Part shown: positions 26,298-31,239 of the stretch, one piece after another | Position numbering within the stretch: position 1 is the stretch's first letter | How the letters are laid out: each line of letters starts with the position of its first letter | Assembly: GCA_913064945.1 (NCBI GenBank) | Contig: CAJYAN010000001.1 | Span: 248,001-312,000 of the forward strand | Direction: 5' to 3' | Length of the DNA: 64,000 bases | Source: an uncultured Gammaproteobacteria bacterium | Lineage (GTDB): Bacteria; Pseudomonadota; Gammaproteobacteria; UBA6429; Thiohalophilaceae | The notes under the pieces: generated by a model | Told to the model about the DNA's origin: nothing | Seen by the model: only the letters and a program-made list of their open reading frames with translations | The model's database searches: none | Made by a program: the position numbers and the translations under genes

Positions 26298-28031
26298 ATG
26301 ATGAAAAAATTGATTGTTTTCCTGTCGCCACTCCTGCTGGCGGCCTGTATCGGCCAGCCGACCAGAACATCGGAAGTCGCGGCTACTCAAGCACCTGCGG
26401 TGACTGCCCGGCACGCAGCAACCACTCCTCCGGCGAAAAAAACGACGCCGCTGAGTAGTGAGTTGTTGTACCACCTAATGGTGGCCGAGATTGCAGGCCA
26501 GCGCGGCCAACTGGCGATCGCGGTTCAGCAATATTATCAGGCCGCCCTGCTTTCACGCGACCCGGATGTTGTCGAACGGGCGGCCCGGATCGCCATCTAT
26601 GCCCGGGATGACGTGATCGCCCTTAAGATAGGTAAGCTGTGGCTGCAACTGGAACCCGATAGTGTGCAGGCCTATACGGTGATTGCCACGGCGCAGATCA
26701 AACAGGCGCAATATGATGCCGCCCTGCAGACACTGGATCACCTGCTCACGCTGACCGAACAACATGGCCAGCGTGGTTATCACTTTATTTTCAGTTTACT
26801 TGGGCGGCAGCGGGATAAACAGGCCGCCCTCGACCTGCTCGACAAGCTGATGAAAAAACATGGCCAGACAGCGGATGCCCTGTTTGCCTATGGTCGACTG
26901 GCGTTACTGGTCGGAGAGCTGGACAAGGCGACCACAGCGGTTAAGCATCTGCTGGTACTCAAGCCGGAGTGGGAAGATGCCCAGCAATTGTGGGTCAACT
27001 TGTTAATTCGTCAGGGCAAGGATACCGAGGCGCTGGATTTTCTGGCAAAAACCGTGGCGAAGTACCCGCAGAATCAAGCCATGCGTATGTATTATGCCCG
27101 CAAGCTGGTCGATGAAAAACGTCTGGCCGATGCGTTCGAGCAATTCAAGATTCTGCTGGAGCAGGACAACACCAATATGGATGCCCGCTATGCCCTGGGC
27201 CTGTTGTCACTGGAAATGAATCACCTGGACGATGCCGAGGGCTATTTCAAGGCGCTCTACGCCGACCAGGAGCGGTCCGGTGAAGCCGCCTTTTACCTGG
27301 GTCAAATTGCCGAACAACGGCATAAAGATAAGGATGCCATTCACTGGTATTCGCTGGTGAGTGATGGGCAGCACTATGTCGGGGCACAGATTCGTATTGC
27401 CATGACCCTGGCACAGGCGGGTGACCTGGAGGCGGCCCGCAAGCGTCTGCATAATATCGAGGCGACCTCCCCCAGCATCGAATTGCGCCTATACCTGGCA
27501 GAAGGTGAGCTCCTGCGCACGGCCAATCGCTCTCAGGAGGCCTTTGACCTTTATAGCAAGGCCCTGTTGAAAATGCCGGGGAATAGCCAGTTGTTATATG
27601 CTCGCGCGCTAACGGCGGAAAAACTGGAGCATCTCGACGTTGCGGTGCAGGACCTGAAGACGATTGTCAAACAGGAGCCGAATAATGTGCAGGCGCTGAA
27701 TGCCCTGGGCTATACCCTGGCGGATCGTACCAAGCATTATAAGGAGGCCCTGAAATATATCGAAGCCGCCTATAAGCTCAACTCGACGGACCCGGCCATT
27801 ATCGACAGCCTGGGCTGGGTTTACTACCGTATGGGGAATCACGATAAGGCATTGCACTATCTTCAGCAGGCCTTCGCCCTGCTAAAAGATCCTGAGATTG
27901 GCGCCCACCTGGGTGAAGTCCTGTGGGTCACGGGTAAGCAGCAACAGGCTCGGCAGGTCTGGAAAGAGGCCTTGCAGACACAGCCGCAGCACAAGACTTT
28001 GCGCGACGTGATTAAACGATTTACCCAATGA
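26298..28031 (+). CDS. TPR repeat lipoprotein
   Basis: The 577-residue product has a lipoprotein signal with Cys17 (LLLAAC), a short Thr/Ala/Pro-rich spacer and a continuous array of tetratricopeptide repeats from about residue 50 to the end (for example ALNALGYTLAD and IIDSLGWVYYRMGNHDKALHYLQQA). It is typically encoded just before lolB in non-enteric gammaproteobacteria and is thought to act at the envelope, but no role is established. Its stop overlaps the lolB start by 4 bp, so the two are translationally coupled. Confidence 0.9.
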   Translation: MMKKLIVFLSPLLLAACIGQPTRTSEVAATQAPAVTARHAATTPPAKKTTPLSSELLYHLMVAEIAGQRGQLAIAVQQYYQAALLSRDPDVVERAARIAIYARDDVIALKIGKLWLQLEPDSVQAYTVIATAQIKQAQYDAALQTLDHLLTLTEQHGQRGYHFIFSLLGRQRDKQAALDLLDKLMKKHGQTADALFAYGRLALLVGELDKATTAVKHLLVLKPEWEDAQQLWVNLLIRQGKDTEALDFLAKTVAKYPQNQAMRMYYARKLVDEKRLADAFEQFKILLEQDNTNMDARYALGLLSLEMNHLDDAEGYFKALYADQERSGEAAFYLGQIAEQRHKDKDAIHWYSLVSDGQHYVGAQIRIAMTLAQAGDLEAARKRLHNIEATSPSIELRLYLAEGELLRTANRSQEAFDLYSKALLKMPGNSQLLYARALTAEKLEHLDVAVQDLKTIVKQEPNNVQALNALGYTLADRTKHYKEALKYIEAAYKLNSTDPAIIDSLGWVYYRMGNHDKALHYLQQAFALLKDPEIGAHLGEVLWVTGKQQQARQVWKEALQTQPQHKTLRDVIKRFTQ

Positions 28032-28630
28032 GGGGCGCGCTGCTTTGCCTGACAATCCTGTTTGTTTCAACGGCCTGTAGCACCATCGCCCCACCGCCGA
28101 CCCGGGAGAATATCTCCTGGCAGGCGCATCAGCATCAGGTCGCTCAGCTGCAATACTGGACCATCACTGGGCGTCTGGCGGTGAGTCATGGCAGCGAGTC
28201 CTGGAATCTCGACGTGTTATGGCAGCAACAGGGTGATGCCTACTTTATTAAGCTGACCGGACCTCTGGGTGCAGGACAAATTCAACTGCGTGGTGATCAA
28301 GATGGTGTGGTCCTGGAGGATGGTGAGCATCATCCCCAATATGCGGAAAACCCCGATAGTTTGCTCTACGACAATACCGGCCTGAAAATACCGGTCAATG
28401 GTATGCGTTTCTGGGTGCGTGGCCTGCCGGCGCCGCAAATGCACGAAGATTCGCGGGCTCTGGTCGCCGGCAGGTTAACGCAATTACATCAGGCAGGCTG
28501 GCAACTCCAGTTTCGTCGCTACCAGCAGGTGAAGACTACGGTGTTGCCACAAAAACTCTTTATGCAGCGAGGCGACCTGGAAGTAAGGCTGATGATTGAT
28601 CAGTGGCAGCTGGGTCTGCCGAATTCGTAA
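28028..28630 (+). CDS. lolB: Outer-membrane lipoprotein receptor LolB
   Basis: LolB takes lipoproteins from the periplasmic carrier LolA and inserts them into the outer membrane. The 200-residue protein has a lipobox with Cys17 (FVSTAC), then the LolB beta-barrel half-fold with WTITGRLAVSHG and the YxxNTGLKIPVNGMRFWVRGLP region. It sits between the TPR lipoprotein gene and ispE, as in many relatives. Confidence 0.94.
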   Translation: MRGALLCLTILFVSTACSTIAPPPTRENISWQAHQHQVAQLQYWTITGRLAVSHGSESWNLDVLWQQQGDAYFIKLTGPLGAGQIQLRGDQDGVVLEDGEHHPQYAENPDSLLYDNTGLKIPVNGMRFWVRGLPAPQMHEDSRALVAGRLTQLHQAGWQLQFRRYQQVKTTVLPQKLFMQRGDLEVRLMIDQWQLGLPNS

Positions 28631-28663
28631 AGACCGTTTGATTTATACTGCCGGGCAAAACCG

Positions 28664-29155
28664 TTGCAACGTCGTCAACTCCTTGGAGTCTTTAAATTGC
28701 TATCACTTATCGGGGCCGCCCTGCTCGGGGTGCCGATGTTGTTGAGTACGGGGATTTTCGATACGACGGGTTCAGTTGCAAAGGGCATTCTGGTCGACAC
28801 GCGCCAGATTCAGCCCGGGCACTATCAAAGCATTGAGTACGCCGGTCGGGAGTTTTGGGTCTACCACTGGTCAGCAAAAGACCGACGGCGTGGCAATGTG
28901 CGAGATGACAGGCAGGCGTGGTCGGTCCTGATTCCCTATGAGCCGTATCGGGGCTGTCGCGTGCATCTGCAGGACAACATGAGCAAGGCCATGCGCTTTG
29001 TCGAGCCCTGTTTTAATGCCGGTTTTGATGTCAGGGGCAGACGCTGGCCCGGCACGGGGGTGGCCCGGCAACGGGATTTACCAAGCCTGGCCTATGAATG
29101 GCAGAATAATCACGAGCTCCTCCTGCAGCCGGGAAAGACAGCAAAGCCAGAATGA
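28664..29155 (+). CDS. Rieske-like Tat-exported protein without Fe-S ligands
   Basis: The 163-residue product begins at TTG with a twin-arginine type signal (QRRQLLGVFK then a hydrophobic helix to about residue 30). The following ILVDTRQIQPGHYQSIEYAG and REFWVYHW resemble the N-terminal part of the bc1-complex Rieske subunit. Where a Rieske protein has CTHLGC and CPCH, this one reads EPYRGC (93-98) and EPCF (114-117), followed by GFDVRGRRWPG like the usual (Y/F)D..GR..xG. Thus both disulfide cysteines (Cys98, Cys116) remain, but all four cluster ligands are replaced (Glu93, Tyr95, Glu114, Phe117). It overlaps ispE by 4 bp. Function unknown; fold assignment is my inference. Confidence 0.65.
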   Translation: MQRRQLLGVFKLLSLIGAALLGVPMLLSTGIFDTTGSVAKGILVDTRQIQPGHYQSIEYAGREFWVYHWSAKDRRRGNVRDDRQAWSVLIPYEPYRGCRVHLQDNMSKAMRFVEPCFNAGFDVRGRRWPGTGVARQRDLPSLAYEWQNNHELLLQPGKTAKPE

Positions 29156-30018
29156 CAACGCCATCCTCAACACAGACCTGGTTCGCCCCGGCCAAGCTGA
29201 ATCTTTTTTTGCATATTACGGCCCGACGAGAGGATGGCTTTCACCTGTTGCAGAGCATATTTCAGTTTCTGGACTATGGTGATGCGCTTAACTTTCGCAT
29301 CACAGAGACAGAGGCAATCCAGCGTTTAGCGGGAAATGAACATCTGCCACTGGAACAGGACCTGATTTACCGTGCGGCACGATTGCTACAGCAACATTGC
29401 AGCGTCAGGCAAGGTGTTCAACTGAGTATCGAGAAAAGACTTCCCATGGGCGGTGGCCTGGGCGGGGGTAGTTCCGATGCCGCCACCACCCTGGTGGCAC
29501 TCAATCAGCTCTGGGGCTGTGGTCTGGACAAAGCGGCCCTGGCCAGGCTGGGCCTGCAACTGGGTGCGGATGTGCCGGTCTTTGTCCAGGGTCAGGCCGC
29601 CTGGGCAGAGGGTGTGGGTGAGCAATTACAGCCTCTGCCGGACCTGCCTGAACCCTGGTATGTGGTCCTGATCCCCGGAGTAAGTGTCTCGACTGCCAAG
29701 GTTTTTTCAGATTCGCAATTGAACCGATCCTGTCCAGCCATTACAATACGCGACTTTCTGGCCGGGCGAGCGGGCAATGTCTGTGAGGCGGTGGTGTGCC
29801 GCCATTATCCTGAAGTCGCCGCGGCCCTGAGCGCACTCTCCCAATATGGGGCGGCGCGGATGACCGGCACCGGGGCTTGCGTCTTTTGCGCCTTTGCATC
29901 CGAACAGGCAGCCCGACAGGCCTGGACAGCATTGTCAGTAGACTGGCAGGGATTTGTGGCCCGAGGTTGTAACACGTCACCTCTTTATACACAGGGTCGG
30001 GTAGCGAGGGGGGAGTAG
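29152..30018 (+). CDS. ispE: 4-diphosphocytidyl-2-C-methyl-D-erythritol kinase
   Basis: IspE phosphorylates CDP-methylerythritol in the MEP pathway to isoprenoids, which feed undecaprenyl phosphate and quinones. The 288-residue GHMP kinase shows the N-terminal FAPAKLNLFLHI with the catalytic-region lysine, the ATP loop LPMGGGLGGGSSDAAT and the C-terminal MTGTGACVF. The start overlaps the stop of the Rieske-like gene. tRNA-Gln follows 42 bp downstream. Confidence 0.96.
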   Translation: MTTPSSTQTWFAPAKLNLFLHITARREDGFHLLQSIFQFLDYGDALNFRITETEAIQRLAGNEHLPLEQDLIYRAARLLQQHCSVRQGVQLSIEKRLPMGGGLGGGSSDAATTLVALNQLWGCGLDKAALARLGLQLGADVPVFVQGQAAWAEGVGEQLQPLPDLPEPWYVVLIPGVSVSTAKVFSDSQLNRSCPAITIRDFLAGRAGNVCEAVVCRHYPEVAAALSALSQYGAARMTGTGACVFCAFASEQAARQAWTALSVDWQGFVARGCNTSPLYTQGRVARGE

Positions 30019-30060
30019 CGAGGGCTGTTTATGACCTTACTCATTCCTCGAATTTTTTAT

Positions 30061-30135
30061 TGGGCCGTCGCCAAGCGGTAAGGCACAGGGTTTTGATCCC
30101 TGCATCCCCAGGTTCGAATCCTGGCGGCCCAGCCA
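30061..30135 (+). tRNA. tRNA-Gln (UUG)
   Basis: The sequence folds into a full cloverleaf of 75 nt: acceptor TGGGCCG/CGGCCCA, anticodon stem CAGGG/CCCTG with loop TTTTGAT (anticodon TTG), T arm with GGTTCGAATCC, and encoded CCA. It is in the same place (ispE-tRNA-Gln-prs) in many gammaproteobacteria. Since GatCAB is encoded in this window, this tRNA may be charged first with glutamate and then amidated, unless glnS is also present elsewhere. Confidence 0.97.
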
Positions 30136-30145
30136 AATAAAGATA

Positions 30146-30270
30146 GGGCCTAGGTCCGAGGGACGAGGATCTAGGAACAAAAACGTAGTAACGGCGTCAG
30201 CCGGTATGCTGTTTACCCTAGAACCTAGAACCTAGAATCTAGTACCTCGATACTAGAACCTGTTTTTTTA
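30146..30270. repeat. CTAG-rich inverted-repeat element, copy 2
   Basis: The left arm (30146-30177) contains CCTAGGTCCGAGG and GATCTAGGAAC; the right arm (30216-30260) has three near-perfect 7-bp units of CCTAGAA followed by variants. The arms are approximately reverse complements, with about 38 bp between. TGTTTTTTTA at 30261-30270 directly follows, so the element may serve as a Rho-independent terminator for the ispE/tRNA-Gln transcript ahead of prs. A related element is at 20883-20999. Confidence 0.75.
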
Positions 30271-30285: not shown

Positions 30286-31239
30286 GTGGCCGACAGCAGC
30301 ATGATGGTCTTTGCGGGGAATGCCAATCCGCAGCTGGCACAAAGCATTGCCGGGCATTTGCATATGTCCCTGGGCAAGGTCATTGTGGGCCGCTTTAGTG
30401 ATGGCGAGGTGATGGTCGAGGTAATGGAGAACGTCCGCGGTCGTGACGTCTTCATTGTGCAGCCGACCTGTGCGCCGACCAATGAAAACCTGATGGAACT
30501 GCTGGTCATGATCGATGCCATGCGGCGTTCCTCGGCGGCACGTGTCACCGCCGTCATCCCTTATTTTGGTTATGCCCGGCAGGACCGCCGCCCACGTTCA
30601 GCACGTGTGCCGATTACGGCCAAGGTAATTGCCGATATGATTGGTGCCGTCGGTGCGGATCGTGTCCTGACGGTCGATTTACACGCCGACCAGATCCAGG
30701 GGTTTTTCGATATCCCGGTCGATAATGTCTATGCCTCGCCTATTTTGCTGGGCGATGTCTGGCGGCAGAAGCACCCGGACCTGATGGTGGTCTCACCGGA
30801 TGTGGGCGGGGTAGTAAGAGCGCGGGCCCTGGCCAAGCGTCTGGATGATGCGGACCTGGCGATTATTGATAAACGCCGACCGCGCGCCAATGTGGCCCTG
30901 GTCATGAATATTATCGGTGATGTCGAAGACCGCACCTGCGTCATCGTCGATGACCTGGTCGACACGGCGGGCACGCTGTCGCAGGCGGCGCGAGCGTTAA
31001 AAGAACACGGTGCGAAGAAGGTCGTGGCCTACTGTACACACCCGGTATTCTCCGGTCCGGCGGTGGACAATATTGCCAACTCGGCTCTGGACGAGATTGT
31101 GGTGACCGACACCATTCCGTTATCGGAGGCCGCGCAGGCCTGTAACAAGATTCGTCAGCTGAGTATTGCCGAGCTGCTGGCCGAGACCATGCGCCGCGTG
31201 AGTAACGAAGAATCGGTGAGTAGTTTATTTGTCGACTAG
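30286..31239 (+). CDS. prs: Ribose-phosphate pyrophosphokinase
   Basis: Prs makes PRPP from ribose 5-phosphate and ATP for purine, pyrimidine, His, Trp and NAD synthesis. The 317-residue protein has the ATP-site YFGYARQDR, the class [19 protein letters not shown] motif and the PRPP loop [14 protein letters not shown]. The start is GTG at 30286 behind AAGGGG; an ATG at 30301 would also leave all motifs intact. Confidence 0.97.

Follow-up and report, generated by a model that had tools for sequence, protein, structure and literature searches.

A conserved family of ligand-free paralogs of the bc1 Rieske subunit in Gammaproteobacteria

The window – a 64,000-nucleotide stretch of DNA from an uncultured gammaproteobacterium – contains a forward-strand open reading frame at positions 28664-29155, with a TTG start and a TGA stop, encoding a protein of 163 residues. 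Its frame is open from 28631, and no other ATG, GTG or TTG codon precedes residue 1. The flanking genes, also on the forward strand, we take to be lolB upstream (28028-28630) and ispE downstream (29152-30018), as in the original prediction. Thirty-three bases separate the lolB stop from the start of the reading frame, and its stop and the ispE start share a four-base ATGA overlap; the position between these genes is thus as first described, and the translational coupling to ispE that was read from it is plausible on the sequence. Neither cytochrome b (petB) nor petC is encoded beside it, and the host encodes a normal PetA, whose gene lies together with that for cytochrome b on contig C9. A promoter and terminator scan over 28000-30150 gave nothing better than shuffled sequences. 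A tRNA-Gln gene (anticodon ttg) lies 3' of ispE at 30061-30135, and a 7-base tandem repeat (CCTAGAA, 6.4 copies) occupies 30217-30261, just upstream of a reading frame starting at 30286.

Alignment with the host's own PetA places two former cluster loops in the window protein. The first, E93-P-Y95-R96-G-C98 (28940-28957, forward strand), corresponds to C-T-H-L-G-C of PetA, and the second, E114-P-C116-F117 (29003-29014, forward strand), to C-P-C-H, so that Glu93, Tyr95, Glu114 and Phe117 occupy the four ligand positions, while the disulfide pair is present as Cys98 and Cys116, the only cysteines of the protein. The C-x-H and C-x-C-H ligand motifs of functional PetA are not present, and to judge from these loops the protein cannot hold a Rieske [2Fe-2S] cluster in the known way. 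The original prediction, that all four ligands are replaced and both structural cysteines retained, was accurate down to the residue numbers; the cysteines are observed in place, and the bond between them is predicted. An N-terminal helix (residues 2-28 of the structural model; 28667-28747, forward strand) includes Arg3, Arg4 and Lys11 (codon 28694-28696). The hinge sequence of PetA is not kept, and a linker of about 25 residues is missing from the window copy, as it is from the copies in genomes G023 and G284. The missing segment (LRDPDS..QP in relatives and in PetA) would sit before the first loop, at about 28871-28903.

The protein had been described as Rieske-like by eye, and both profile and structural comparisons bear this out. 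The NCBIfam model for PetA, TIGR01416, matches it with an E-value of 8.3e-7 and 29.2 bits, below the cut-off of 97.4; the host's true PetA scores 232.7 bits, and of nine other members eight score 41.6-93.6 and one (G359) 106.1, above the cut-off. A profile-profile comparison of 11 family members with eight true PetA sequences gave 99.9% (E 2.4e-34) over 176 columns, and a phmmer search of PDB sequences with the window protein found three weak matches, of which two were Rieske proteins. Pfam returned nothing for the window protein, even at an E-value of 10, and nothing over cut-off for nine relatives (eight without any match and one matching DUF7287 weakly, E 0.27); in the control, the host's true PetA was matched by both Rieske and UCR_Fe-S_N. 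An AlphaFold model of the window protein (nine sequences) reached pLDDT 82.1 and pTM 0.67, and a model of a fuller relative reached 84.8 and 0.72. With both models, all 50 Foldseek matches listed were either bc1-complex entries, in whose titles the complex is named but the chain not in every case, or entries bearing the title Rieske protein. The best VIA-align match was 1rie (Z 13.2, 2.6 A, 111 residues). These comparisons show that the window protein is a homolog, and in this host a paralog, of the bc1 Rieske subunit PetA, and the models show a predicted Rieske fold for its head, with a predicted N-terminal membrane helix, where a structure of another kind would have told against the original reading.

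Relatives lacking the ligands are widespread. The aligned set numbers 46 including the window protein: 14 are adjacent to lolB, 25 form a second type, and seven lie elsewhere (three allies of the lolB type and four members of a side group). In the 40 genomes of the host's order a search for homologs at the same locus, proposed with the original prediction, found the gene adjoining lolB in 14, with ispE following on the same contig in 13 of these; in the other, G023, the contig ends. We examined 30 ispE loci in the order. The gene is present at nine; at 17 it is absent and 9-138 bases separate lolB from ispE; two others have different reading frames between these genes, another lacks a lolB within reach, and the last is interrupted by the end of its contig. 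A side-group relative occurs at another place in four further genomes of the order, and two stretches, from G015 and G019, contained nothing that the search pattern recognised. One genome of this survey with lolB and ispE adjacent also encodes a divergent Rieske protein with intact ligands (locus L237, G016:C17). A scan of genome contigs found eight loci, one of them in a named species, Thiohalophilus thiocyanatoxydans.

In a sample of 369 genomes of the class, a cluster-free relative was found in at least 16, belonging to 11 family codes, a lower limit since each search was followed to its best 30 loci. Among the 30 loci of the class-sample search 11 were cluster-free and 18 canonical, and one was left unassigned by its ligand pattern. 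Within the order of one carrier, G145, 46 of 47 genomes gave a match and the best 30 loci were all cluster-free; a further 12 matches all had canonical ligands, nine of them in genomes with a cluster-free copy besides. The remaining three genomes (G791, G818 and G826), in each of which the sole match is canonical, seem to lack one. Sixteen of these 30 loci, together with copies from G164, G300 and G261 and six from the class sample, make up the 25 second-type sequences. A phylum sample of 398 genomes, searched with the lolB-type profile and so covering that type alone, gave the host and eight weaker matches, all eight with canonical ligands. The cluster-free proteins are thus a conserved family across several gammaproteobacterial lineages and not an oddity of one genome, and a literature search of open-licence PMC papers found no description of a family of cluster-free Rieske paralogs.

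The genes around these relatives, given here under their putative names, differ. In the 25 second-type members, rsmJ lies within the stretch read in 21 and yajQ in 13, often with hprA-like and cyaY (frataxin) genes, in varying order and strand; copies at loci L164, L165, L167, L168, L171 and L134-L163 usually stand by rsmJ, with the other three genes often present. Other second-type members lie near sohB (G228 and G332) or serB (G277), and the allies of the lolB type beside an MltD-like gene (G346), mutM (G371) or a hemG-like gene (G284). The side-group gene is between Nudix-like and thioredoxin-like genes in G014 and G025, the two surroundings read. No neighbouring gene common to both main types was found in the stretches read.

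This variety bears on the original suggestion of a role in the envelope. Adjacency to lolB in 14 of the 40 genomes, and the ATGA overlap with ispE in the window, would suit a partner of LolB in the lipoprotein or outer-membrane pathway, but lolB and ispE stand together without the gene at 17 of the 30 ispE loci, and outside the lolB locus relatives occur in seven other neighbourhoods in other lineages, beside rsmJ, mutM, serB, sohB and others. With neighbours changing in this way a LolB-linked role becomes unlikely, and we give it a very small probability; a special link to LolB or the envelope finds no support. Export by the Tat system, also proposed, is possible from the N-terminal sequence: the twin Arg, Arg3-Arg4 in the window protein (counted by eye in this tally), is kept in 13 of 14 lolB-type members and occurs at its position in 12 of 25 second-type members, and the host genome encodes TatC. 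The signal model TIGR01409 matched the true PetA and was not listed for the window protein. The earlier reading is weak where it concerns Tat, LolB and the envelope.

Residue conservation was counted in 42 main-group members (14 lolB-type, three allies and 25 second-type) against 37 true PetA sequences, with the four side-group members added for some positions. No Cys occurs at either Cys-ligand position in any of the 46, and His at a His-ligand position is found in two (at the second, both in the main groups). Asp or Glu stands at the second Cys-ligand position in all 46 (42/42 and 4/4). In the lolB type and its allies a second acid is at the first Cys position (Glu or Asp, 16/17), with Arg or Lys at the position of the PetA tip Leu (17/17); in the second type it is at the first His position (Asp or Glu, 22/25), with Arg at the second His position (23/25) and the tip Leu present (23/25). 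The alignment thus shows the former cluster loops keeping the Cys pair, with two acids and one base in the stead of the ligands. A base in the membrane helix (Lys in 41 members, Arg in one) marks all 42 main-group members and none of the 37 PetA sequences, a count to be read with the trimming of 16 second-type N-termini by a motif that contains this Lys, which none failed. The Pro-loop PAP is absent from all 46 and present in 24 of 30 PetA sequences.

Both disulfide cysteines are invariant in the main groups (42/42), and in 40 of the 42 they are the only cysteines. Such conservation might indicate a thiol-redox protein, with the pair as an active centre passing electrons or disulfides in the periplasm; however, the same pair is present in 37 of 37 PetA sequences, where it is structural, and the side group has lost it. 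This group, from genus g15 of the host's family (loci L239, L242, L243 and L244 in genomes G014, G025, G035 and G030), lacks the ligands, any cysteine and the membrane Lys in 4/4, and has the acid at the second Cys position in 4/4; lolB and ispE are adjacent in the three of its genomes in which that locus was read. Homologs with unrelated residues at the cysteines had been named as grounds for doubting the original prediction, and they do exist, confined to these four. Since the fold and the acid remain in g15 though the disulfide is lost, selection there is not for thiol chemistry, and with a group devoid of cysteines we consider such a function improbable.

A maximum-likelihood tree, built without the ligand, disulfide and membrane-Lys columns, separates the 46 cluster-free sequences from 30 PetA sequences by one branch (support 99/91), and this split recurs in 100% of 200 bootstrap trees. 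The PetA sequences are a choice (37 in the alignment and earlier tree; 10 of 40 left out of the present one), and the earlier tree, with 36 cluster-free and 37 PetA sequences, agrees (100/94). The long cluster-free branches leave room for attraction, the tree is unrooted, and its internal branching order is uncertain. The window copy has a very long branch of about 2 changes per site; it joins the G284 copy in both trees, a meeting of two long branches and a grouping we do not trust. For four sets of relatives, with 7, 2, 7 and 5 members, pairwise dN/dS was 0.05-0.37 in 51 of 53 pairs, with dS undefined in two, and selection is purifying in these four sets, which lie outside the window copy and the side group. 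That the gene is a decaying, non-functional duplicate of petA would fit the loss of all ligands, and in the window copy the very long branch and the missing linker, but the old split, the wide distribution, the frames open in the members read and the purifying dN/dS in four sets of relatives stand against it. For the family as a whole decay is largely refuted, and we find it hardly credible as the explanation of this gene.

What the protein does is approached from its fold and its kept residues. We propose, at a little below even confidence, a membrane-anchored 'dummy Rieske' whose action is through contact with another protein, with bc1 the most likely site. The paralog would be kept as a non-redox protein acting through partner binding; its likeliest partner would be cytochrome bc1, the complex to which its ancestor belonged, and there it might serve as an accessory, assembly or regulatory subunit that occupies or guards the Rieske docking place without transferring electrons. 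For a structural clamp in place of the cluster, the paralog would rely on the disulfide together with a salt bridge joining the two loops. A more specific form of this proposal, that an old and unnamed gammaproteobacterial pseudo-Rieske family regulates or assembles bc1 by cluster-free competition for the docking place of the Rieske head, is possible and on balance doubtful.

Cytochrome b, the subunit to which this count applies, is present in all 16 carriers of the class sample. The co-occurrence speaks for bc1 as partner, but weakly, because with a limit of E 1e-11 the second-type profile finds 282 of the 369 class genomes, in most cases presumably through PetA, and because the carriers are interrelated. 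The absence of a neighbour common to both main types is expected if the partner is encoded elsewhere. Several findings speak against a bc1 partner: no fusion, operon or structure ties the family to the complex; the tip Leu of PetA, which docks on cytochrome b, is replaced throughout the lolB type and its allies, though largely kept in the second type; the Pro-loop PAP and the hinge are not kept; and the side group is without the membrane Lys and the disulfide.

The main rival to contact with bc1 is a carboxylate site for a metal or other cation, in which the acids bind a metal ion and the protein acts as a periplasmic metal sensor, carrier or chaperone; a metal-binding role was also raised in the original prediction. 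The acid at the second Cys position throughout the 46 members and the second acid on the other loop (38/42) are consistent with such a site, and a gene we take to be cyaY (frataxin) lies near many second-type copies. The second acid is, however, placed differently in the two types, the conserved Arg or Lys beside the acids would fit a salt bridge equally well, the ligand positions have no conserved Cys or His, and most cyaY matches are on the opposite strand, with none in the stretch read at the lolB-type locus. PetA itself can hold zinc in its cluster site: in Thermochromatium tepidum (PDB 7yr9) zinc is reported to be bound by the two Cys ligands (PMC10492824). The fold is the same and stable without its cluster there; in that protein, however, the ligands are present, and here they are absent. 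We regard metal binding as unlikely, and continue to prefer protein contact.

Enzymes that have lost a cofactor while selection keeps the fold are well known; for electron carriers, to our knowledge, such loss is little described. NirD, a Rieske-like nitrite reductase subunit, lacks the ligands in some bacteria and so shares a Rieske fold without a cluster, but it is a soluble, cytoplasmic enzyme subunit and is not known as a relative of PetA. With PetA (TIGR01416) the family has in common the N-terminal signal or anchor helix, the Rieske fold, the Cys pair and the YD/FD..GR core; it differs in having no cluster ligands, no Pro-loop PAP and, in the main groups, a Lys in the membrane helix, and the window protein differs further in standing away from petB/petC and scoring under the model's cut-off. 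Our literature search (open-licence PMC papers) gave one case of a ligand-free electron carrier of this kind, the 'deranged' Rieske proteins of Acidocella, which are reported to have lost three or four ligands, to keep the disulfide cysteines and to accompany a degenerate bc1 (PMC10715153). The likeness is in the lost ligands and retained cysteines; those proteins are the iron-sulfur subunit of a degenerate complex, whereas here there is an extra paralog alongside an intact PetA. The Acidocella proteins are a precedent for the anatomy and not for a separate conserved paralog, and they qualify the novelty originally claimed for the role.

A conserved cluster-free paralog beside an intact PetA would mean that the Rieske head's structural task and its electron-carrying task had been separated in nature, and if the proposed competition at bc1 is right, the pseudo-Rieske family would be the respiratory-chain counterpart of a pseudoenzyme. 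The family also poses a risk for automatic naming, as one of the nine scanned members exceeds the NCBIfam cut-off: the cluster-free protein at L103:1135-1734, with its 106.1 bits, would be called the respiratory iron-sulfur subunit of bc1 by TIGR01416.
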